Below are positions 5,929-16,742 of a stretch of DNA of 64,000 nucleotides, one piece after another. The DNA lies in the NCBI GenBank assembly GCA_014802335.1, contig JAAVCL010000003.1, positions 41,902 to 105,901 of the forward strand, given 5' to 3'. Under the pieces are notes generated by a model. The model was not told the origin of the DNA. It did not search any database and was given only the letters and a program-made list of their open reading frames with translations. Position 1 is the stretch's first letter. The number at the start of each line of letters is the position of its first letter. The translations under genes and the position numbers were made by a program. The DNA is from Bacteroides sp. (GTDB taxonomy: Bacteria; Bacteroidota; Bacteroidia; Bacteroidales; Muribaculaceae).

Positions 5929-6405
5929 GAAACAATTAATTGATGTTATATGTAAAATTACAAAGAAAATTCGGATTAGGCAAGAGACTGAGAACGAAAA
6001 TGATAGCTCTATACAGAGCAAATGTGAGAGTTGTCGGGTGTATCGCTGGATTTTGCTATTATTTGGCTTAGTGAAGGCGGTTCAGGCGGACAAGTGCGCC
6101 GATTGGTTTTGGCGAATGGAAGCCATTATCTCCGCGGAGTAAGGTCTTTTATCGAGCCGTCATCGTCAAGTCGGGTCTCAAACTTCACACCGGCAAATTC
6201 TTCTTGATTCTTGGTAACTGACTCGCTTCTTTCAAACACGGAGATAGCGATTGTCTGACTAATAACCAAGTCGGACTTGGTGATATAACCATATTTTATT
6301 AACTTTATCACCGTGGTAATAATAACCGTGGTGATAAAGTATGAAATTCTATAATCGGAGAAAAGAATTACATCATGTCGGCTCCCTACTCGGCCTATTT
6401 CATCC
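5929..6405. other. gene-poor gap with a decayed C-terminal fragment
   Basis: There is no intact gene. On the minus strand, about 6297 to 6126, an open frame ends in FAGVKFETRLDDDGSIKDLT and a stop. It reads like the C-terminus of a real protein that I do not recognise. It is joined in the track to a shadow of the BspA gene (6126-6569), so the ORF as listed is artificial. The inverted repeat at 6302-6340 and the right 58-bp repeat are also here. Confidence 0.5.
6302..6340. promoter_or_regulatory. inverted repeat, possible operator
   Basis: Arms actttatcac and gtgataaagt (10 bp, perfect) surround an inner ccgtggt...ccgtggt direct repeat. The whole is nearly palindromic except for two central mismatched pairs. 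It lies upstream of the Xre/R-M unit on the minus strand. Whether it is an operator or a terminator for the BspA gene cannot be told from sequence. Confidence 0.4.
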
Positions 6406-6424
6406 TCACTTGACGATTTTACGG
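6367..6424. repeat. 58-bp direct repeat, right copy (BspA 3' end)
   Basis: The partner of 116-173. It covers the final codons of the BspA gene at 6406-7785 and about 40 bp of its 3' flank. Confidence 0.85.
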
Positions 6425-7785
6425 ATGCCCTCGGCAGTGCGTGAGATGTAAACGCCGCGTCCAAGACTCTCGAAGCTCTCTCCCACGTATACTCCGCCCA
6501 ATGTATAATAACCGTATACACCCGGCGCATATTCACTTCCCGAACTTGAATCCGCTTCGATCTCATCAATTCCCGTCACTATTTCTATCGGCTTGATGTC
6601 GCTAAATAATCTCCACGGCGCAAAAGTGCGCGCGGCCTCGATACCTTCCGGTTTTACGTAGAGCGTTGCTGATGCATAATCTTCCTCTCTGACGAAGTTG
6701 TAATTTATCAAGAATGGCGGATCATCAGTGTTGTAAATAATTGTTGACAAATTCTGTATATATTCCGGATTCATATCAGGATGCCCGTAGTATGGACCGT
6801 AATAATTAAAACACTTAGGGAAGTTATTCCATAAAAATGTGTAATCTAAATCGAGATATAAATTTGGACGTCTCTCGTATCTGGTTACTTTTTCAGCAAG
6901 GGAGGAACTTTGGTCAAAAAATACGCTTCCTGCTATATGAACTTCGCAAAGGTTCAGCATATTAAAAAAAGGAGAACCGTAAATTTTAGTTCGCTCGGGC
7001 AGAACTATTTTTTCCATTTCGCAATTATTTGCAAATGCACCGTCCATGAGTTCACAGCCTTCTCCAAGAGTAAATTTCTTCATATAGAAATTATTGGCAA
7101 ATGCCTCTTTCTCTATCGTGACATTTGCAGGAATACAAACACTGTCTAACTTCGTAAAGTTGAAAGCATAAGTGCCAATACGTCCCACTGTCGGTGGTAA
7201 ATTAATTTTTTTAATAGGAGAGCCGGTAAACATACTGTATGGTATCTCTGAAAGATAATCGGGCCACTCCACCTCCTCCAAACCGGTCTGAACAAAAATA
7301 TTCGCTCCTATATAACTTATATCATCAGGCAGCTTACTGAAGTCAAATATTTTAAGGTTTGAACAATATCTAAATGCTCCATACCCTATCTTTTTAAGTC
7401 TGTTTGCCCGGATATTTATAATTTCGATTATCGTGTTGTCCATGAAAGCTTCTCCTTCAATAGATGTAACCGAGGGGGGTACGTTAAGAGTTTTTACAAC
7501 CGGGGCTATGTAATCAATAGTTGTGACAGTATATGTGGAGTTGCCTATTTGCACCCTTGGCATGATAGACATTTCTTCTCTTATTTCTGTTTCCTCACGG
7601 GGCAAGCGCACTGATGCTGTCTTCTCCTTTTCCGAGAGGATGGTATAGATGAATCCGTCAATTGATACGCTTTCAGATTCGGTCGGATTGCTTGTGTTGC
7701 CACCAATGCTTTGCAGACTGCCCATACAAGGCAACAGGCAAATTACAATTGCCCTGATAATGTTCCGCATAATCTCTCTTTTCAT
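6406..7785 (-). CDS. BspA-like LRR_5 surface protein (copy A, left arm)
   Basis: A 459-residue exported protein. An N-terminal signal peptide (IIRAIVICLLPCMGSLQS) is followed by BspA/LRR_5-type repeats of the TpLRR kind (AFRYCSNLKIFDFSKLP, then IGANIFVQTGLEEVEWP). The C-terminus (YYTLGGVYVGE...GRGVYISRT..GIRKIVK) resembles a T9SS type A sorting tail. BspA relatives are surface adhesins that bind host or bacterial partners, but the ligand here is unknown. It follows copy B (7819-10035) by 33 bp, so the two form an operon. The paralogue at 15362-16729 on the opposite strand is nearly identical for the first 200 residues and diverges in the middle, making this the outer gene of the left inverted-duplication arm. 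Confidence 0.85.
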   Translation of the reverse strand: MKREIMRNIIRAIVICLLPCMGSLQSIGGNTSNPTESESVSIDGFIYTILSEKEKTASVRLPREETEIREEMSIMPRVQIGNSTYTVTTIDYIAPVVKTLNVPPSVTSIEGEAFMDNTIIEIINIRANRLKKIGYGAFRYCSNLKIFDFSKLPDDISYIGANIFVQTGLEEVEWPDYLSEIPYSMFTGSPIKKINLPPTVGRIGTYAFNFTKLDSVCIPANVTIEKEAFANNFYMKKFTLGEGCELMDGAFANNCEMEKIVLPERTKIYGSPFFNMLNLCEVHIAGSVFFDQSSSLAEKVTRYERRPNLYLDLDYTFLWNNFPKCFNYYGPYYGHPDMNPEYIQNLSTIIYNTDDPPFLINYNFVREEDYASATLYVKPEGIEAARTFAPWRLFSDIKPIEIVTGIDEIEADSSSGSEYAPGVYGYYTLGGVYVGESFESLGRGVYISRTAEGIRKIVK

Positions 7786-7818
7786 ATCTGAATAATAAAG
7801 CAGTTAAAATCGTTTTCG

Positions 7819-10035
7819 TCATTTTATGATTTTACGGATACCGTCAGTAGTGCGGCAGATGTAAACTCCGCGGCTAAGACTATCGAAGTTGTCTCCTACG
7901 TATACTCCGCTGAGGGTATAATAACCGCAACATCCGGATTCCGCACCGGCCTCTTCCGCATAATCCAAGTCTGTATTATCAATCCCAGTCACAATATCTA
8001 ACGGTGCGATATTATGAAAGTTTTTCCAGGGGTTTATAACCCTTGCTCTGTTCAGTCCCTTTGGTTCGACATATAACGTTGCGGTGTCATAATCCTTCTG
8101 ACGCACGATGTCATAGTCTCCGATATATTGAGGAGCATCCGTGTGATATATAACCTTTTTAAGATCTTGCTTCCATACAGGGCTGATAGAAACATGAGGA
8201 TCATAACCGTGATCGGATCCATAATCTTCTTCATATCCAAAATGTGAAGGAAAAGAATAATAACCAAACGGATTATTTCCAAGATAGTATGCCATCTCAT
8301 CATCCCGTGCTAAAAGTTGCGCTCCGTTGTAAAAATGCACATCAGCTGCAAGCTCGAGCTCACTCAGATTCAGCATGTCGAAAAAAGGACAACCATAAAT
8401 CCGGGTGCCGGAAGGCAATACTATTTTTTCAAGATCAGAATTGTAGCTCAGGCAAGTTGAATAAAGCCGGCATCCTTCTCCCAATCTTAGTTCTTTCAAG
8501 TCAAAGTTACATGCAAAGGCTTGTTCCATCAACAAGACATTAGCGGGAATAGAAAGAGTATCAATTTTACACCACGCAAAAGCCGCCGTTGAAACGGTGG
8601 TAAGGGTTGGTGGTAATTTTAAATTTGTAACTGCAGAGTAAAAAAACATTTTCTCAGGTACGACCGGAAGGTGTTCAGGCCATTCAACATCGGTAATGCC
8701 CGATCTGAAGAAAACACGATTCCCTACCTTTTCCGGGTCGGACGGTAGTTTCGAAAAATCGAAAGAACTCAGGGCACTACAGTTCGCAAATGCGTTTTCT
8801 CCAATATATTCCAATCTGTCACATTCGATATTGATTTGCTCTATTGGGGAGAAGTTAAATATTCCGCCCGGAATTATCTTCAGTTCTGCCGGCCAGGTAA
8901 CCTCTTTAAAAGAGGTGTTATAAAAGATTCCGTACCCTAATTTATCGGAATCCGTGGGTAGTTTGGAAAAATCGAAAGAATTCAAGGTAATACACTTCGC
9001 AAATGCGTACTCTCCAATATATTCCAATCTGTCACATTCGATGTTAATTCTCTCTATTGCAGACTCATAAAACGTTTTGGAAGGAATTGTCCTTAGATCT
9101 GCAGGCCAGTTAATCACCCGCATATAGGTTCCACTAAAGATTCCGCCCCCTAATTTATCGGGATCCGAGGGTAGCTTGGAAAAATCGAAAGCTGTCAGTT
9201 CTTTACAGTATGCAAAAGCTTCCTCTCCGACATATTCCAATCTGTCACATTCGATATTGATTTTCTCTATTGGGGTATAGCTAAATATTCCCCTTGGAAT
9301 TATCTTTAGTTCTGCCGGCCAGTTAACCTCTTTAAAAGGGGTTTTATAAAAGATTCCGTACCCTATTTTATCGGGATCCGCGGGTAGTTTGGAAAAATCG
9401 AAAGAACTCAGAGAACTACAGTTAGCAAATGCTTTCTCTCCAACTTCTTCCAATTCGCTGCCTTCTATATTGATTCTCTCTATTGCAGAGTCATAGAACG
9501 TTTTAGGTGGTATTGTCTTTAGTTCTGCAGGCCAGTTAACCTCCTTAATACCGGTTCTACTAAAGATTCCGTCCCCTAATTTATCAGGATTCGTGGGTAG
9601 TTTGGAAAAATCAAAAGAACTCAGAGCACTACAGTAATTAAAAGCTTCCTTTCCGACTTCTTCCAATCTGTCACATTCAAATTCTATATGTCTTAAATCA
9701 AAAAAGGATGCAAATGCACGTTCTTCAATTTATTTTACTGTTGCAGGTACTGTTAAGGATATTTCTCCACTAAAAAATCGGGGTGTGATTTTACGTATTG
9801 TCGTTACCGTGTAGTCAATACCATCTATATTTACTATATCAGGTATTACAAACTCTTGCTTATTACGCGATACATCTTTCATAAGATCTACTGCAACGGT
9901 CCTATCCTCTTCTGAAAGGACTATATACCTAAAATCATCAATCCAGATTTGTACAGCACTTGCAAGCAACCTTACACTCAGTAATAAACAAACAATCATA
10001 CACCGCATTACGACACTGATGGTCTTTCTTTCCAT
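7819..10035 (-). pseudogene. BspA-like LRR_5 protein (copy B, left arm), nonsense-interrupted
   Basis: The gene starts at ATG 10035, with an in-frame TAA 12 nt upstream that fixes the start, and encodes a signal peptide. Codon 102 is TAA (9730-9732) where the paralogue at 13976 has TAC in an otherwise matching context (ACAGTAAAATA). The frame is otherwise open to 7819, which is why the track shows a 101-residue and a 615-residue piece. Restored, it would be about 738 residues against 454 for the paralogue. The extra length is four added 71-residue LRR units (8812-9663). The C-terminus has the same GVYIxRTTDGIRKIIK tail. It is either a true pseudogene or expressed only by read-through or after reversion. 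Confidence 0.85.
8812..9663 (-). repeat. four tandem 213-bp units in BspA copy B
   Basis: Four consecutive 71-residue units each begin E(E/Y)(V/I)GE.AFA.C..L and end INIE...L. A fifth, more divergent unit follows and corresponds to the single one in the paralogue at 13976. Units 1 and 3 resemble each other (KTFY(D/E)SAIERINIE), as do units 2 and 4 (GYGIFY.T.FKEV). The array therefore looks like a duplicated 426-bp dimer. Confidence 0.9.
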
Positions 10036-10188
10036 GGCTTTGGCTTTTTAGGTAGTGGTTATAAATAACGATCAGAGGAAACAAATACGATCAGAGGAAA
10101 CAGACTTCTGTCTCAAAATATCTGTATCTCCCATATTGATCTTATTTAAATTTCAGCACCCACTAATTGTTAAGAATCGTTTCGGCGA

Positions 10189-10196
10189 CAAATATA
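10189..10196 (-). promoter_or_regulatory. -7 box for BspA copy B (left)
   Basis: The minus strand has TATATTTG, matching the Bacteroidota -7 consensus TAnnTTTG. It is the mirror of the box before the right copy. The -33 position reads TTTC rather than the TTTG seen in the right arm, so this promoter may be weaker. Confidence 0.5.
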
Positions 10197-10204
10197 CAAA
10201 ATTA

Positions 10205-10574
10205 TATTTGATTATAGAAATTTTCATAGATATTTGAACCCACAAGAAATGTGAATGACGTAGAGGTATTATTCTTTCGAGTCAAGTATGAGTTTGAAAT
10301 TATTAATAGTATTGAGTTATGAGGTATGTGGATATAATTTTAGATTCGGCACAAGGCGTTATGAGCTTCCATGACAACAGAAGCCGGTTTCTGAAGTTCG
10401 CCTCATAATATATGAGACAACGTACTAAAAAATATCGAACATAATTTTAAAATCAAAAGTTGACGGATAAGGGTGATCCGTCAGAATGAGTGGATAATTT
10501 TGCATCGTCTTAAGAGCATGGCGCGCTATAGGATTCTCTTTAAGATTTTAAGTTTAATCTAAATCAATTAAAAA
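10205..10574. other. non-coding leader before the central operon
   Basis: About 370 bp with no ORF I would accept. It holds a perfect 8-bp inverted repeat (tgacggat / atccgtca, 10461-10483) and a TAATTTTG -7-like box at 10495-10502 on the plus strand. Both lie upstream of the operon starting at 10575. Confidence 0.55.
10461..10502 (+). promoter_or_regulatory. possible operator and -7 box of the central operon
   Basis: An 8-bp inverted repeat with a 7-nt spacer lies 12 bp before TAATTTTG (10495-10502), which fits TAnnTTTG. No well-spaced -33 TTTG is seen. If it is a promoter, the palindrome sits where a regulator could block or activate it. Confidence 0.4.
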
Positions 10575-11960
10575 ATGTCCACAATTAAACAAACAGAAGA
10601 CAAAGACAACGTAATTGACGGTTATGATCGTTTTTCGAGTCACCAATATTTAAGTCCCACGCGTGGCGTGTTACCATTGGTAATTTATCCAAATGAGGAA
10701 CAGACCGGTCAACTTACAGATGCTCACTGCTCAATACTTAGATCGTTGGGTTTTAACAGTGTCGTCACAAAAGGGACGGAAGAAGAGCTTTTGGAAAATA
10801 TCTCCATCCTTATAAACAACGGTCTTATGCCAATTCCCACACATGATATATTTAATCCTTCAAACAAGAAGCTTATTGCAGGGTTAACTGACAAACTTTC
10901 CGAGTTGGTTGCAAAATTAGATCGAAAGGAAAAGCTGGGTGGCATTTTCACCGGTTACTGTGGTTCTTTGGAGGATCTTGATGTCTTGAAAGCAATAGTT
11001 TCTGCGATAGACACGGGCCTCGGATGTACTAAATTGCCATCTATTAAAGATGTAACAAGCGTAACGAACCAAAGAACTTTGCAAATTCATTTGATTCCGG
11101 AACAATCATCACGGTTAATATTCAGTATCCCCGATTTAAGTATAAAAGATGCAGAATCTAAATTTTTTGCAGCGAAGACTCAAACATGTGCAGGCCCCGG
11201 TGTATGGTTATCAGATTCGAAAGCTACAACAAAAGATAGCGCAAACGTGGAAAAGACGCGCCTAAAGGAATTTTTTAATAATCTTGAGATTCTTACGGTG
11301 ATGTCAAATTATACCTCACGTCCGATATGGGGAAAAGTAAATGAAGGTTCCTATGCATCCATGTTGCTTGAATCCATGAATGCTCTCGCCTATGGCGCGC
11401 AAGGTCTTTTCTTCACTCAAAGCAGTAACAATGGCTCAAAAGTAAGTTCCGTTCCCAGTACAGCAAATCCATGGTATAAGTTAATTAATCGGATTAAACA
11501 ATTCGAAGGTATATTTCTTAACGGAAAGACAATAGATGTGCGACATCTTCTTGACTCTTCCGTATCCAGTGATTGCTATTTCGCTGAATTTAAGAATACA
11601 ATGGGCCCCTTAATTAGAATATCTCCTGTTAAGGCATCGCCTATTAAGGCCACAACTGATTCGAACCTTACCATATCGCATATCTCTTTAATGCCTATGA
11701 ACTCTATGCTTAATAATGATATTTTCAATGATGAAACATTAGATTTCTTAGTCATTGTCAATAATAGTATAACTGCTACGAGAGCATACCGTTTAGAGTT
11801 GAATCCTTATTATCAAGTATATGAGGTGCAATCGGCTAAGATAACGAATCCGGCAGATCGTAGTAAAAATACTTTGGAAGAGGAGCTTGTGGTTACAACC
11901 AATGGTGTTATAGAGCGGAGAATAGCTCCGGGAGATGTATTGATACTCAGGTGGAAATAA
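10575..11960 (+). CDS. GH-A-like TIM-barrel paralogue, probably non-catalytic, unknown function
   Basis: A 461-residue protein that I do not recognise by name. No signal peptide is visible. Its middle and C-terminal parts match the downstream gene in order: NALAYGAQGLFFT (compare TALAYGAKGVVLW), WYKLINRIKQFEGIFLNGK (compare WYYVRRIIREIKRYESIFLNSK) and a closing IERRIAPGDVLIL (compare IERLLAPGGYIIF). These fit a GH42-like (clan GH-A) barrel with a C-terminal beta domain. Where the neighbour has CDEPSLELL, this protein has GYCGSLEDL (about 127-135), so the putative acid residue is missing. It forms an operon with the next gene (8-nt gap). It may be a partner or binding subunit (inference). Confidence 0.6.
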   Translation: MSTIKQTEDKDNVIDGYDRFSSHQYLSPTRGVLPLVIYPNEEQTGQLTDAHCSILRSLGFNSVVTKGTEEELLENISILINNGLMPIPTHDIFNPSNKKLIAGLTDKLSELVAKLDRKEKLGGIFTGYCGSLEDLDVLKAIVSAIDTGLGCTKLPSIKDVTSVTNQRTLQIHLIPEQSSRLIFSIPDLSIKDAESKFFAAKTQTCAGPGVWLSDSKATTKDSANVEKTRLKEFFNNLEILTVMSNYTSRPIWGKVNEGSYASMLLESMNALAYGAQGLFFTQSSNNGSKVSSVPSTANPWYKLINRIKQFEGIFLNGKTIDVRHLLDSSVSSDCYFAEFKNTMGPLIRISPVKASPIKATTDSNLTISHISLMPMNSMLNNDIFNDETLDFLVIVNNSITATRAYRLELNPYYQVYEVQSAKITNPADRSKNTLEEELVVTTNGVIERRIAPGDVLILRWK

Positions 11961-11968
11961 AAATAAAT

Positions 11969-13735
11969 ATGTATAACAAACTAAAAATTAAAACTATGCT
12001 AAAAGATTCTTTAAAAACGAATAAAGTAGTGGCGGCCAATAGTGACTCGGGAAGCAGCGAGGATTCTACATATAAATATAAGAACCCTACCCCAGGTGAA
12101 ATTCCTATAATTGGCTATTTGGTATCCCATAACAAAAGTTTTGAACTTAAGAATGTAAATCCTCAAGATATAAAAGTTGAGGAAAATTTCACTCCCTACG
12201 TCCCCGACGAACCGGGGAATCCAACTGAATTGGATGATCGGCAGAATGTTCTGAATTTTTCCGCTGCCGGATGTAATCTCGCTTTAAATGGAGTAGTCAC
12301 AAATAAGGACACTAACTATATAGAACTTCAAAAATATGCTTACAACAAATTGGGATTGATTGTGTCTAATATAGGAAAGTTATGTGCAGAACCGGTTGCT
12401 AATAATACCAATAATGAAGGTCCTTTCGAAAGTTTTATAAATGCATTTAAAGCTGATTCTAATATAGAAGATGATAAATATAAAAAGGTTGCAGCTTTTC
12501 TATTATGTGATGAACCTTCTCTGGAGCTATTAGAGGGTAGTGAATATATTAATTCAAATACCCTGTCCTTTTATTACAAACGGCTTGTAGAGAAATGTAC
12601 CCCGGAAGGTTTGGATGCATTAGTGCTTATAAACCTGGTTGCTATTCATGGAAAAAATAGGACTGCAACTGAGTATCAACGTTATCTGGATGCTTACGAG
12701 GTAAATTTTAATCCATTGTTTTATTCTGTTGATGTATATCCGATTCTTCAGTGGAATCCTTTGGTAATTACAGAAAATAGCCTAAGTGGAATGAGCAGCT
12801 CCCTGCGCGCGGGTGAGATTGTGCAAGTGCATGAGCGCTTTTACAGAACGCTGGAAATGGTCTCGGCCCAAGCGCGCAATAATAATAATAAGCCATTTTG
12901 GTATTATCCGCTTGTCGGTGAGCATTTTAATCATAATAGTTTTTATTATCCCGCTCAAAAAGAAGAGTATATGCGGTACTCCATATTCACCGCTTTGGCC
13001 TATGGTGCTAAGGGAGTGGTATTATGGCGTATGCTGGAGAATATAGACGATAGGAAAAATCTATTTCTGGTACATGACCACGCTGATTATAACCCCGAAA
13101 GCTATATGCGTCATCCTATTAATGCTGACCGCACTCGCAGTCCGTTCTGGTATTATGTGAGACGCATAATCAGGGAAATTAAGCGTTATGAGTCTATTTT
13201 CCTTAATTCTAAGGTGGTCGATACCTTTCATACGGGACTTGAGAAAATGGCAGATTATGCTCAATCTATTTATGACCCTTCAACACCAGGTGTACTTCCG
13301 TACGTGAAACATGGCTGGGCGCCGGGGGTAGAAAATCCAATCCCTCCTGAAACTCGCACAGCCGAGGTCTGGGGACTCAGACCGTTGAATTCTGACAGTA
13401 GGACTGTTTTTAAATCGATAGAGAGTCCAGAAGAAGGCTTCGGTGTTCTTGTTTCTCATTTGGAAGATGACAACAATGCAGAAGATCAACAAGAGCAAAA
13501 GAAAAACGCACAATCCCCGGTTAAAAAAAATTATTATATGGTGGTGAATCATGATGCTGCCAATGCCCAAAAGATTCGCATCAATTTCTTGAGCGGATAT
13601 AAGATTAAGGAGCTGACACCTCGCAGTTCAAATAATATCATCATTAATAATGAGATAAACACAACAACCACAAGTAGTATTGAACGACTGTTGGCACCGG
13701 GAGGCTATATTATTTTTCAACAGATAAATGATTAG
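11969..13735 (+). CDS. GH42-like (GH-A) TIM-barrel protein, unknown substrate
   Basis: 588 residues from the ATG at 11969; the track's earlier GTG at 11951 overlaps the upstream stop and is less likely. Seen in order: a conserved IPIIGYLVS strand, CDEPS (DEP at about 181-183, typical of the acid/base strand in GH-A enzymes), YSVDVYPIL, NKPFWYYPLVGEHF, the TALAYGAKGVVLW block, and a C-terminal beta-sandwich-like part ending IERLLAPGGYIIF. The N-terminus is Ser/Asp-rich with no signal peptide, so the protein may be cytoplasmic, which is odd for a glycan enzyme. It is flanked by BspA-type surface genes on both sides. The family call rests on motif resemblance only. Confidence 0.6.
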   Translation: MYNKLKIKTMLKDSLKTNKVVAANSDSGSSEDSTYKYKNPTPGEIPIIGYLVSHNKSFELKNVNPQDIKVEENFTPYVPDEPGNPTELDDRQNVLNFSAAGCNLALNGVVTNKDTNYIELQKYAYNKLGLIVSNIGKLCAEPVANNTNNEGPFESFINAFKADSNIEDDKYKKVAAFLLCDEPSLELLEGSEYINSNTLSFYYKRLVEKCTPEGLDALVLINLVAIHGKNRTATEYQRYLDAYEVNFNPLFYSVDVYPILQWNPLVITENSLSGMSSSLRAGEIVQVHERFYRTLEMVSAQARNNNNKPFWYYPLVGEHFNHNSFYYPAQKEEYMRYSIFTALAYGAKGVVLWRMLENIDDRKNLFLVHDHADYNPESYMRHPINADRTRSPFWYYVRRIIREIKRYESIFLNSKVVDTFHTGLEKMADYAQSIYDPSTPGVLPYVKHGWAPGVENPIPPETRTAEVWGLRPLNSDSRTVFKSIESPEEGFGVLVSHLEDDNNAEDQQEQKKNAQSPVKKNYYMVVNHDAANAQKIRINFLSGYKIKELTPRSSNNIIINNEINTTTTSSIERLLAPGGYIIFQQIND

Positions 13736-13746
13736 AATCCTTTTAA

Positions 13747-13796
13747 AATTCCCGGATTTTAGGAATACGATAAATAATTCCTAAAATCCGGGAATT
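13747..13796 (+). terminator. terminator of the central operon
   Basis: A perfect 20-bp inverted repeat (aattcccggattttaggaat, 13747-13766, and its complement 13777-13796) begins 11 bp after the stop at 13735. An AT-rich tail follows it. It probably insulates the BspA copy B promoter just downstream. Confidence 0.8.
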
Positions 13797-13809
13797 ATAA
13801 TATAATAAT

Positions 13810-13840
13810 TTTGATAAGTACACTTAATTTTGTATATTTG
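13810..13840 (+). promoter_or_regulatory. promoter of BspA pair, right arm
   Basis: TTTG (13810-13813), 19 nt, TATATTTG (13833-13840) is an excellent match to the Bacteroidota housekeeping promoter. The predicted start is near 13847, giving a leader of about 130 nt. Only the -7 half lies inside the inverted duplication. Confidence 0.75.
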
Positions 13841-13975
13841 TTGCCGAAACGATTCTTAACAATTAGTGGGTGCTGAAATATAAATAAGATCGATATGGGA
13901 GATACAGATATTTTGAGGCAGAAGTCCGTTTCCTCTGAATCATTATTTATAGCCACTACCAAAAAAGCTAAAGCC

Positions 13976-15340
13976 ATGCAAAGAAAGAATATTAGTGTCA
14001 TAATGCGGTGTATGATAGTTAGCTTATTACTGAGTATAGGACTGCTTAATAGTGCTGCGCAAATCTGGATTGACGATTTTAGGTATATAGTCCTTTCAGA
14101 AGAGGATAGGACCGTTGCAGTAGATCTTATGAAAGATGTATCGGGTAATAAGCAAGAGTATGTAATACCTGATATAGTAAATATAGATGGTATTGACTAC
14201 ACGGTAACGACAATACGTAAAATCAAACCCCGAGTTTATAATGGAACAATATCCTTAACAGTACCTGCAACAGTAAAATACATTGAAGAATGGGCATTTG
14301 CATCCTTTTTTGATTTAAGACATATAGAATTTGAATGTGACAGACTGGAAGAAGTTGGAGCGAGTGCATTCTGGGGCTGTGAAAACTTGAGTTCTTTCGA
14401 TTTTTCCAAACTACCATCCGACCCGGAAAAGGTAGGAAATGGAGTTTTCTATAGGTCGGGCATTACCGAAGTTGAATGGCCGGAATATCTTGCGGTTGTA
14501 CCGGAGAAGATGTTTTTTAATTCTGCGGTTACTAAATTAAAATTGCCACCAACTGTTACAACCGTCTCAACGGCGGCTTTTACGTTGTGCAAAATTGATA
14601 CTCTTTCTATTCCCGATAATGTCGTGTTGAGGGAACAGGCTTTTGCATGTAACTTTGATTTGAAAGAACTAAGATTGGGAGAAGGATGCCATTTGTATGC
14701 AACTTGCCTGAGCTACAATTCTGATCTGGAGAAAATAGTGTTGCCTTCAGGCACCCGGATTTATGGTTGTCCTTTTTTCGACATGCTGAATCTCTGTGAG
14801 CTCGAGCTTGCAGCTGATGTGGAATTTTATAACGGAGCACAACTTTTAGCACTGGATAGCGACATGATATATTATGTTAGGGATAATGATTTAGGTGAAT
14901 ATTTATCTCCGGAATTTCACTATAGCAGTAATCCGATTGAACATGGGAGCTTGTATGAAGGTTATGGAAGAGTCTCTCCGAATTGGAAACAATATGTTAA
15001 AAAGGTTATATATCACACGGATGCTCCTCAATATATAGGAGACTATGACATCGTGCGTCAGAAGGATTATGACACCGCAACGCTATATGTCGAACCCAAG
15101 GGACTGAACAGAGCAAGGGTTATAAACCCCTGGAAAAACTTTCATAATATCGCACCGTTAGATATTGTGACCGGGATTGAGAATACAGACTTGGATTCTG
15201 CGGAAGAGGCCGGTGCGGAATTCGGATGTTGCGGTTATTATACCCTCAGCGGAGTATACGTAGGAGACAATTTCGATAGTCTTAGCCGCGGAGTTTACAT
15301 CTCGCGCACTACTGACGGTATCCGTAAAATCATAAAATGA
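13976..15340 (+). CDS. BspA-like LRR_5 surface protein (copy B', right arm)
   Basis: 454 residues from the ATG at 13976. The track starts at 13895, but the left-arm copy has an in-frame stop in that extension, so the internal ATG ahead of the signal peptide (MIVSLLLSIGLLNSAAQ) is chosen. The body has LRR_5 motifs (FWGCENLSSFDFSKLP, VPEKMFFNSAVTKLKLP) and one 71-residue unit instead of five. The C-terminus ends in the T9SS-like tail YYTLSGVYVGD...RGVYISRTTDGIRKIIK. It is intact where the left copy has a stop. A' follows after 21 bp, so they are probably co-transcribed from the promoter at 13810-13840. The likely role is a surface adhesin; the ligand is unknown. Confidence 0.85.
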   Translation: MQRKNISVIMRCMIVSLLLSIGLLNSAAQIWIDDFRYIVLSEEDRTVAVDLMKDVSGNKQEYVIPDIVNIDGIDYTVTTIRKIKPRVYNGTISLTVPATVKYIEEWAFASFFDLRHIEFECDRLEEVGASAFWGCENLSSFDFSKLPSDPEKVGNGVFYRSGITEVEWPEYLAVVPEKMFFNSAVTKLKLPPTVTTVSTAAFTLCKIDTLSIPDNVVLREQAFACNFDLKELRLGEGCHLYATCLSYNSDLEKIVLPSGTRIYGCPFFDMLNLCELELAADVEFYNGAQLLALDSDMIYYVRDNDLGEYLSPEFHYSSNPIEHGSLYEGYGRVSPNWKQYVKKVIYHTDAPQYIGDYDIVRQKDYDTATLYVEPKGLNRARVINPWKNFHNIAPLDIVTGIENTDLDSAEEAGAEFGCCGYYTLSGVYVGDNFDSLSRGVYISRTTDGIRKIIK

Positions 15341-15361
15341 CGAAAACGACTTTAATCAGAT

Positions 15362-16729
15362 ATGAAAAGAGAGATTATGCGGAACATTATCAGGGCAATT
15401 GTAATTTGCCTGTTGCCTTGTATGGGCAGCCTGCAAAGCATTGGTGCCAACACAAGCAATACGACCGAATCTGAAAGCGTATCAATTGACGGATTCATCT
15501 ATACCATCCTCTCGGAAAAGGAGAAGACAGCATCAGTGCGCTTGCCCTGTGAGGAAACAGAAATAAGAGAAGAAATGTCTATCATGCCAAGGGTGGAAAT
15601 AGGCAACACCACATATACTGTCACAACTATTGATTACATAGCCCCGGTTGTAAAAACTCTTAACGTACCCCCTTCGGTTACATCTATTGAAGGAGAAGCT
15701 TTCATGGACAACACGATAATCGAAATTATAAATATCCGAGCAAACAGACTTAAAAAGATAGGGTATGGAGCATTTGGATATTGTTCAAACCTTAAAACAT
15801 TCGACTTCAGCAAGCTGCCTGATGATATAAGTTATATAGGAGGGCAAGTTTTTATACAGTCCGGTTTGGAGGAAGTGGAGTGGCCCGATGATCTTTCAGA
15901 GATACCAAAATGTATGTTTACCGGCTCTCCAATTAAAAAAATTAATTTACCACCTACGGTGAAACGTATTGGCAAATGTGCTTTCAGCTTTACACAATTA
16001 GACAGTGTAAGTATTCCTGCAAATGTCACGATAGAGGAAGAGGCATTCAGCAATAATTTCTATATGAAGAAATTTACTCTTGGAGAAGGCTGTGAACTCA
16101 AGGACGGTGCATTTGCAGATAATTGTGAAATGGAAAAAATAGTTTTGCCCGAGCGAACTAAAATTTACGGCTCTCCTTTCTACCATGTGCTCAACCTCAG
16201 AGAAGTCCATATTGCGGGGAGCGTATTTTTTGACCAAAATTCCTATCTTACAAAAAGATTAAAGACTTTCCCGTCAAGGCGGTTTCCTGTTTTTCATGAT
16301 AAATATTATGAACACTATTTTCCTGAATGTTTTCATTATAGTCCGTTATACTTTGGCTCCATGGACCCGGAATATAAACAGAATTTGTCTACAATCATAT
16401 ATAACACTGATGAGCCGGCACTTTTGATAAACAATCATTTTATGAGAACGAGTGATTATGATTCGGCGACTCTATACGTAAAACCGGAAGGTGTCGAGAC
16501 CGCGCGCAATTTTGAACCATGGTGTTTATTTAGCGCTATCAAGCCGATAGAAATAGTGACGGGAATTGATGAGATCGAAACGGATTCATGTTCGGGAAGT
16601 GAATATGCGCCGGGTGTATACGGTTATTATACACTGAGCGGAGTATACATGGGAGAGAGCTTCGAAAGTCTTGGACGCGGCGTTTACATCTCACGCACTG
16701 CCGACGGTATCCGTAAAATCATGAAATGA
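15362..16729 (+). CDS. BspA-like LRR_5 surface protein (copy A', right arm)
   Basis: A 455-residue paralogue of 6406-7785. It has the same signal peptide and N-terminal half (MKREIMRNIIRAIVICLLPC), with LRR_5 motifs such as AFGYCSNLKTFDFSKLP. The segment at about residues 290-370 differs clearly from copy A (FPSRRFPVFHDKYYEHYF against a quite different sequence). The C-terminus again ends GRGVYISRTADGIRKIMK. The last gene of the right arm, it stops 61 bp before the tRNA gene. Divergence in one central segment between near-identical ends is what gene conversion or selection on an exposed surface would give. Confidence 0.85.
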   Translation: MKREIMRNIIRAIVICLLPCMGSLQSIGANTSNTTESESVSIDGFIYTILSEKEKTASVRLPCEETEIREEMSIMPRVEIGNTTYTVTTIDYIAPVVKTLNVPPSVTSIEGEAFMDNTIIEIINIRANRLKKIGYGAFGYCSNLKTFDFSKLPDDISYIGGQVFIQSGLEEVEWPDDLSEIPKCMFTGSPIKKINLPPTVKRIGKCAFSFTQLDSVSIPANVTIEEEAFSNNFYMKKFTLGEGCELKDGAFADNCEMEKIVLPERTKIYGSPFYHVLNLREVHIAGSVFFDQNSYLTKRLKTFPSRRFPVFHDKYYEHYFPECFHYSPLYFGSMDPEYKQNLSTIIYNTDEPALLINNHFMRTSDYDSATLYVKPEGVETARNFEPWCLFSAIKPIEIVTGIDEIETDSCSGSEYAPGVYGYYTLSGVYMGESFESLGRGVYISRTADGIRKIMK

Positions 16730-16742
16730 AGTTGACTGAAAA

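Follow-up and report, generated by a model that had tools for sequence, protein, structure and literature searches.

The window, that is, the whole 64,000-nucleotide stretch of a Bacteroides sp. (Muribaculaceae) contig that was analysed, contains two adjacent genes, P0001 and P0002, whose products are termed the A protein and the B protein. The pair is located between two arrays of BspA-type (LRR_5) genes, and the features of the locus are as follows:

6406 to 10035, minus strand: left BspA-type array, an inverted copy of the right one
10091 to 10228: inner arm of the inverted repeat, 90% complementary to its partner at 13801-13938
10575 to 11960, plus strand: P0001 (461 aa), the A protein, a GH42/GH-A-like barrel and beta-sandwich with the active site erased
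11969 to 13735, plus strand: P0002 (588 aa), the B protein, with the same fold as P0001 and the site kept
12509 to 12517, plus strand: codons of D181-E182-P183 in P0002, at the end of predicted strand 4
13747 to 13796, plus strand: stem-loop directly 3' of P0002, terminator- or attenuator-like, with a 20-bp stem (-29.5 kcal/mol, z -5.9)
13810 to 13840, plus strand: match to the Bacteroidota-type promoter consensus (TTTG-N19-TAnnTTTG), 5' of the right array
13895 to 16729, plus strand: right BspA-type (LRR_5) array, with two genes at 13895-15340 and 15362-16729

Both genes of the pair lie on the plus strand and are separated by 8 bp. An in-frame stop stands immediately 5' of P0001, whose open frame is 462 aa, and the best start of P0002 is the ATG at 11969; the listed GTG at 11951 would overlap P0001. 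P0001 and P0002 are homologues. Each recovered the other when searched with phmmer against the collected open reading frames (E 1.6e-4 and 4.4e-4), and the A-type profile was aligned to single family members by hhalign with a probability of 100% (E 4e-66, 384 columns). An earlier note on this DNA had described an adjacent GH-A-like homologous pair sharing an ALAYGA(K/Q)G block, with CDEPS in the second protein alone. These searches, together with AlphaFold2 and Foldseek on both proteins, bear out that description: the block reads ALAYGAQG/ALAYGAKG in the two proteins, and D181-E182-P183 occurs only in P0002. The AT-richness on which the note had also remarked is not a distinctive trait: the GC content of each gene is 38.8%, that of the BspA genes on either side 40% and that of the whole window 45%.

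The placement of the pair between surface-protein arrays was confirmed by the BspA (LRR_5) genes on both sides. The array regions 6400-10228 and 13801-16735 are inverted copies with about 84-86% identity, and the pair occupies the 3.57-kb spacer of this inverted repeat. Recombination between the arrays could flip the pair and thereby swap its downstream array. The first gene of the left array (7819-10035, minus strand) carries an in-frame stop at 9730-9732 (codon 102) in a frame of 738 codons that is otherwise open. The stem-loop after P0002 was not called by a consensus terminator scan, and the promoter match at 13810-13840 is suggestive only, given five matches in the window versus 1.9 expected. 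Based on these two sequence elements, the right BspA array in the window is probably transcribed separately from the A and B genes.

Structure prediction, which the earlier note had proposed as a check for unrelated folds, assigned one fold to both proteins. The AlphaFold2 models of P0001 and P0002 (pLDDT 78.8 and 83.5; pTM 0.86 and 0.88) each consist of an eight-stranded (beta/alpha)8 barrel followed by a C-terminal beta-sandwich, and the barrel of clan GH-A was recognised in both by AlphaFold2 and Foldseek. By E-value, the best PDB matches of P0002 were PslG, GH164 and GH42; P0001 matched mixed GH barrels, including the non-enzymatic CD98hc. The TM-scores of both models were modest (about 0.3-0.5), and thus a GH-type barrel is supported, and family membership is not.

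Single-sequence searches with P0001 and P0002 returned no Pfam match (GH42 PF02449 included), nothing above noise in NCBIfam and nothing credible in the PDB; malate synthase and cathepsin were dismissed as noise (E 0.03-0.1). A single-protein scan of genome contigs was likewise empty, and an alignment query recovered the relatives. Of 297 genomes from the same family, 20 contained matches. The A-type profile gave matches at genus level in 29 of 111 genomes, at family level in 28 of 397 and at order level in 13 of 393; outside the genus, only lower-scoring forms, mostly single, were found. About 90 family members were collected, and conservation was scored on 15 A, 19 B and 49 single proteins. 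Profiles of family members matched GH42 PF02449 in 23 of 30 cases (best 1.4e-9) and GH42/GH158 chains in the PDB, and half of the ten relatives scanned singly exceeded the GH42 gathering score of Pfam. The earlier statement that no named family fits therefore stands for P0001 and P0002 themselves in Pfam and NCBIfam, and falls for the family, since the single-copy relatives above the gathering cut-off identify GH42 as the nearby named family. P0001 and P0002 belong to a divergent GH42/clan GH-A-like family.

Resemblance to GH42 is seen in the region of strands 6 to 8, with S-x-D-x-Y-P and LR...LA.GA.GI.YW, and in the acid/base Glu on strand 4. Unlike GH42, the family has lost the nucleophile Glu, shows D-E in place of N-E, has members of about 400-600 aa rather than 650-700 aa and includes A copies without an active site; P0001 and P0002 score nothing on PF02449. 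GH164 and GH158 are GH-A barrels with weak profile matches at the acid/base region and fold matches to the family, and they retain both catalytic Glu, unlike the family here. Among the other candidates, a defence system was rejected (PADLOC gave only a weak PDC-M48A match, E 0.0016 over 44 residues), as was a site upstream of metG common to the relatives, since gene order around metG is not conserved and an empty site could thus not be demonstrated. For a mobile-element origin, no match was found in plasmids (P0002), phages (one relative, L139) or viral contigs. Two variants of domain structure were recorded. Exported members of about 900 aa, present in L051 (4384-12702, three in tandem), L053, L054 and L063, have an additional domain at the C-terminus and also a Por-like tail. 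Some B proteins carry a Cys-rich N-terminal extension of about 30-60 residues, a possible metal site that P0002 lacks:

L032, 9742 to 11436: B protein with Cys-rich extension
L096, 108 to 1958: B protein with Cys-rich extension
L097, 8572 to 10365: B protein with Cys-rich extension

Fifteen A/B couples were found, distributed over seven genomes that all belong to one Muribaculaceae genus (the window; G000:C7 and C27; G069:C18 and C6; G265:C2, C71 and C39; G100:C11; three in G367:C13; G336:C44 and C46; G306:C1). The gene order is A-B in 12 couples and B-A in three (L032, L033 and L035); the genes are 9-69 bp apart or overlap in most loci, and an LRR gene sits between them in two (L035 and L097). 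A and B are co-inherited, as would be expected for any linked genes: their distances are correlated (r=0.93, Mantel p=2e-4, 14 couples), and in a quick tree, some long branches of which are unsure, 12 A proteins form one clade whose two subclades mirror two B clades. The couples of L108, L033 and L044 are placed elsewhere on this tree, and the A state thus arose at least three times. The B proteins themselves evolve fast. Between L034 and L098, identity is 70-91% for the flanking genes, 31% for B and 23-29% for the LRR proteins; between L033 and L096, the flanks are 60-92% identical, and A and B fall below the comparison threshold. One contig stretch (L095 1315-17914, G367:C13) holds three couples and a truncated fourth A together with a polysaccharide cluster, and its couples lie near other secreted proteins, one of them CotH-like.

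The earlier note had suggested a search for co-occurring homologues beside BspA genes, and BspA company is indeed recurrent. A co-directional BspA/LRR_5 gene was located within 400 bp in 17 of 23 signal-less clusters versus 3 of 35 others (Fisher p 4e-7, by a crude signal rule). A 4-nt overlap joins the B and LRR genes in L037, L038, L039 and L043, and the two genes abut in L108; couples of L033 and L095 have no adjoining LRR gene, and the LRR gene of L034 is on the opposite strand. One small genome (G305, L100-L106) has seven single family genes with DE intact, six of which are followed by a same-strand BspA/LRR-type gene within 225 bp. The BspA-type LRR_5 proteins that flank the couple are known mainly as surface or adhesion proteins, and no report of enzyme partners of this sort was found in the literature searched. 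A search of the literature for a description of the module also returned none. The recurrent, co-inherited active/dead couple is a confirmed observation, stronger than the earlier note had stated.

Neither P0001 nor P0002 has a signal peptide, as had been remarked before, and all 15 couples read as signal-less; a simple score flagged the A protein of L044, where the upstream ATG is doubtful. The signal rule is crude; it was wrong at least for L033, L037, L040 and L095, scored as having a signal, and for L036, L045 and L123, scored as having none. Single-copy family members usually carry a signal peptide. Such relatives have Wza, Wzz, Wzx, EpsG, CpsB and glycosyltransferase genes as neighbours in L094 and L041, and SusC/SusD in L054. 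PslG, a GH39 EPS glycosidase and the best PDB fold match of P0002, is comparable in that the exported relatives of the family are likewise in EPS clusters; unlike PslG, P0002 is not exported, has another active site and is 8% identical to it. We know of no A-like partner of PslG.

The division into an active and an inactive protein extends across the family. P0002 retains D181-E182-P183, N222, S253-x-D255-x-Y257 and W311, and conservation of D181, E182, N222, D255 and Y257 reaches 97-100% across the 68 B and single proteins. At the same positions, the 15 A proteins keep E182 in none, N222 in one, Y257 in two, D181 in five and D255 in six; of the scaffold, W311, L343, G346, A347, F411 and G578 persist in 14-15 of these proteins. 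This loss of site residues with retention of the scaffold is the pseudoenzyme signature of A. The acid/base Glu that GH42 has at the end of strand 4 corresponds to E182 in P0002 and is lost in P0001. Of the two catalytic Glu that characterise GH-A on strands 4 and 7, P0002 has the strand-4 residue only, and P0001 has neither. The reading of DEP as the GH-A catalytic site thus holds for the strand-4 Glu and covers half a site, because throughout the family a non-acid residue stands where GH42 has its nucleophile Glu (aligned with FLMEQS of 4uni and FMLMEQT of 3tts). With the nucleophile missing, catalysis by B is a prediction.

The couple is best classed as a GH-A/GH42-like enzyme with a pseudoenzyme partner, a variation on a known arrangement and not a new kind. 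The reading we prefer, with a rough probability of 0.4, is a pseudoenzyme/enzyme couple that arose by GH42-related duplication and acts intracellularly as an A-B heteromer. Homology, fold, residue pattern, missing signal, co-inheritance and neighbourhood are established by computation; beyond these, we infer the heteromer, the cytosolic site, the glycan substrate and the functional tie to BspA. The duplication would have occurred within a GH42-related family, the exported relatives of which are encoded in polysaccharide utilization loci and capsule/EPS clusters. As the active subunit, B would use an atypical GH-A-type site in which strand 4 supplies DE, strand 5 N and strand 6 D-x-Y, without a strand-7 nucleophile; A, with its site residues gone and scaffold retained, may serve the complex by giving it structure, holding the substrate or regulating it. 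With the signal peptide lost, the couple would most likely be intracellular, and the heteromer may act there on a cell-made or imported glycan. In the genome, the couple is tied to secreted BspA/LRR proteins that change rapidly. Loci with an LRR gene between A and B, couples that lack an adjoining LRR gene and the fast evolution of B weigh against this reading. A dead paralogue acting beside a live one is described for the heparanases HPSE1/HPSE2 (PMC12406646). Unlike that animal pair from another GH family, A and B are an adjacent bacterial gene couple.

B and the DE-bearing members might alternatively use a substrate-assisted or other non-GH42 mechanism on N-acetyl sugars, by analogy with GH18, GH20, GH84 and GH123, in which substrate assistance on such sugars is found. 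The change of GH42 N-E to D-E and the vanished nucleophile point in this direction, but no sequence relation to GH123 (PF13320) exists (hhalign probability 0.2%), and the overall similarity is to GH42/GH39/GH164. We regard this mechanism as somewhat unlikely, and it is compatible with the pseudoenzyme/enzyme couple. A little less credit is given to an exit of the couple without a Sec signal, by lysis, vesicles or an unknown exporter, and to work at the surface with BspA/LRR proteins, for example in an anchored glycan-binding or glycan-cutting complex. The close linkage to secreted LRR genes, the fast divergence typical of surface proteins and the exported relatives would suit such an exit; A and B, however, have neither a signal nor a sorting tail, type VI VipB was not found in eight genomes (by a model that may miss the Bacteroidota subtype), and type IX export, for which SprA was found in seven of the eight, requires a Sec signal. 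It is improbable that B and the entire family are non-hydrolytic glycan-binding or regulatory barrels from which A merely drifted further: the non-acid nucleophile position throughout would agree with this, but near-invariance of D, E, N, D and Y in 68 divergent proteins and the exported relatives in polysaccharide gene clusters argue against it. That A is a decaying duplicate, a pseudogene being lost, is very improbable despite broken A copies adjoining B genes in L040, considering the full-length frame in 14 of 15 A proteins, their retained scaffold (residues present in 13-15 of the 15) and their inheritance in step with B.

Returning to the intracellular couple, a bolder version, which we consider doubtful, has three genes of one gut Muribaculaceae genus forming a hypervariable module, in which a heteromer of active and dead glycosidase, working by a new catalytic arrangement, and a fast-changing secreted LRR protein would tailor or sense capsule or host glycan. 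If so, the B family would merit its own CAZy family. If the heteromer is real, it would represent a bacterial pseudoglycosidase conserved as the partner of its active paralogue, with three or more origins on the tree. From this family it could be learned how a GH-A barrel works, or is reused, without a strand-7 nucleophile, and the family would provide a first biochemical handle on BspA/LRR loci in gut bacteria of mouse and rabbit, which are little studied.
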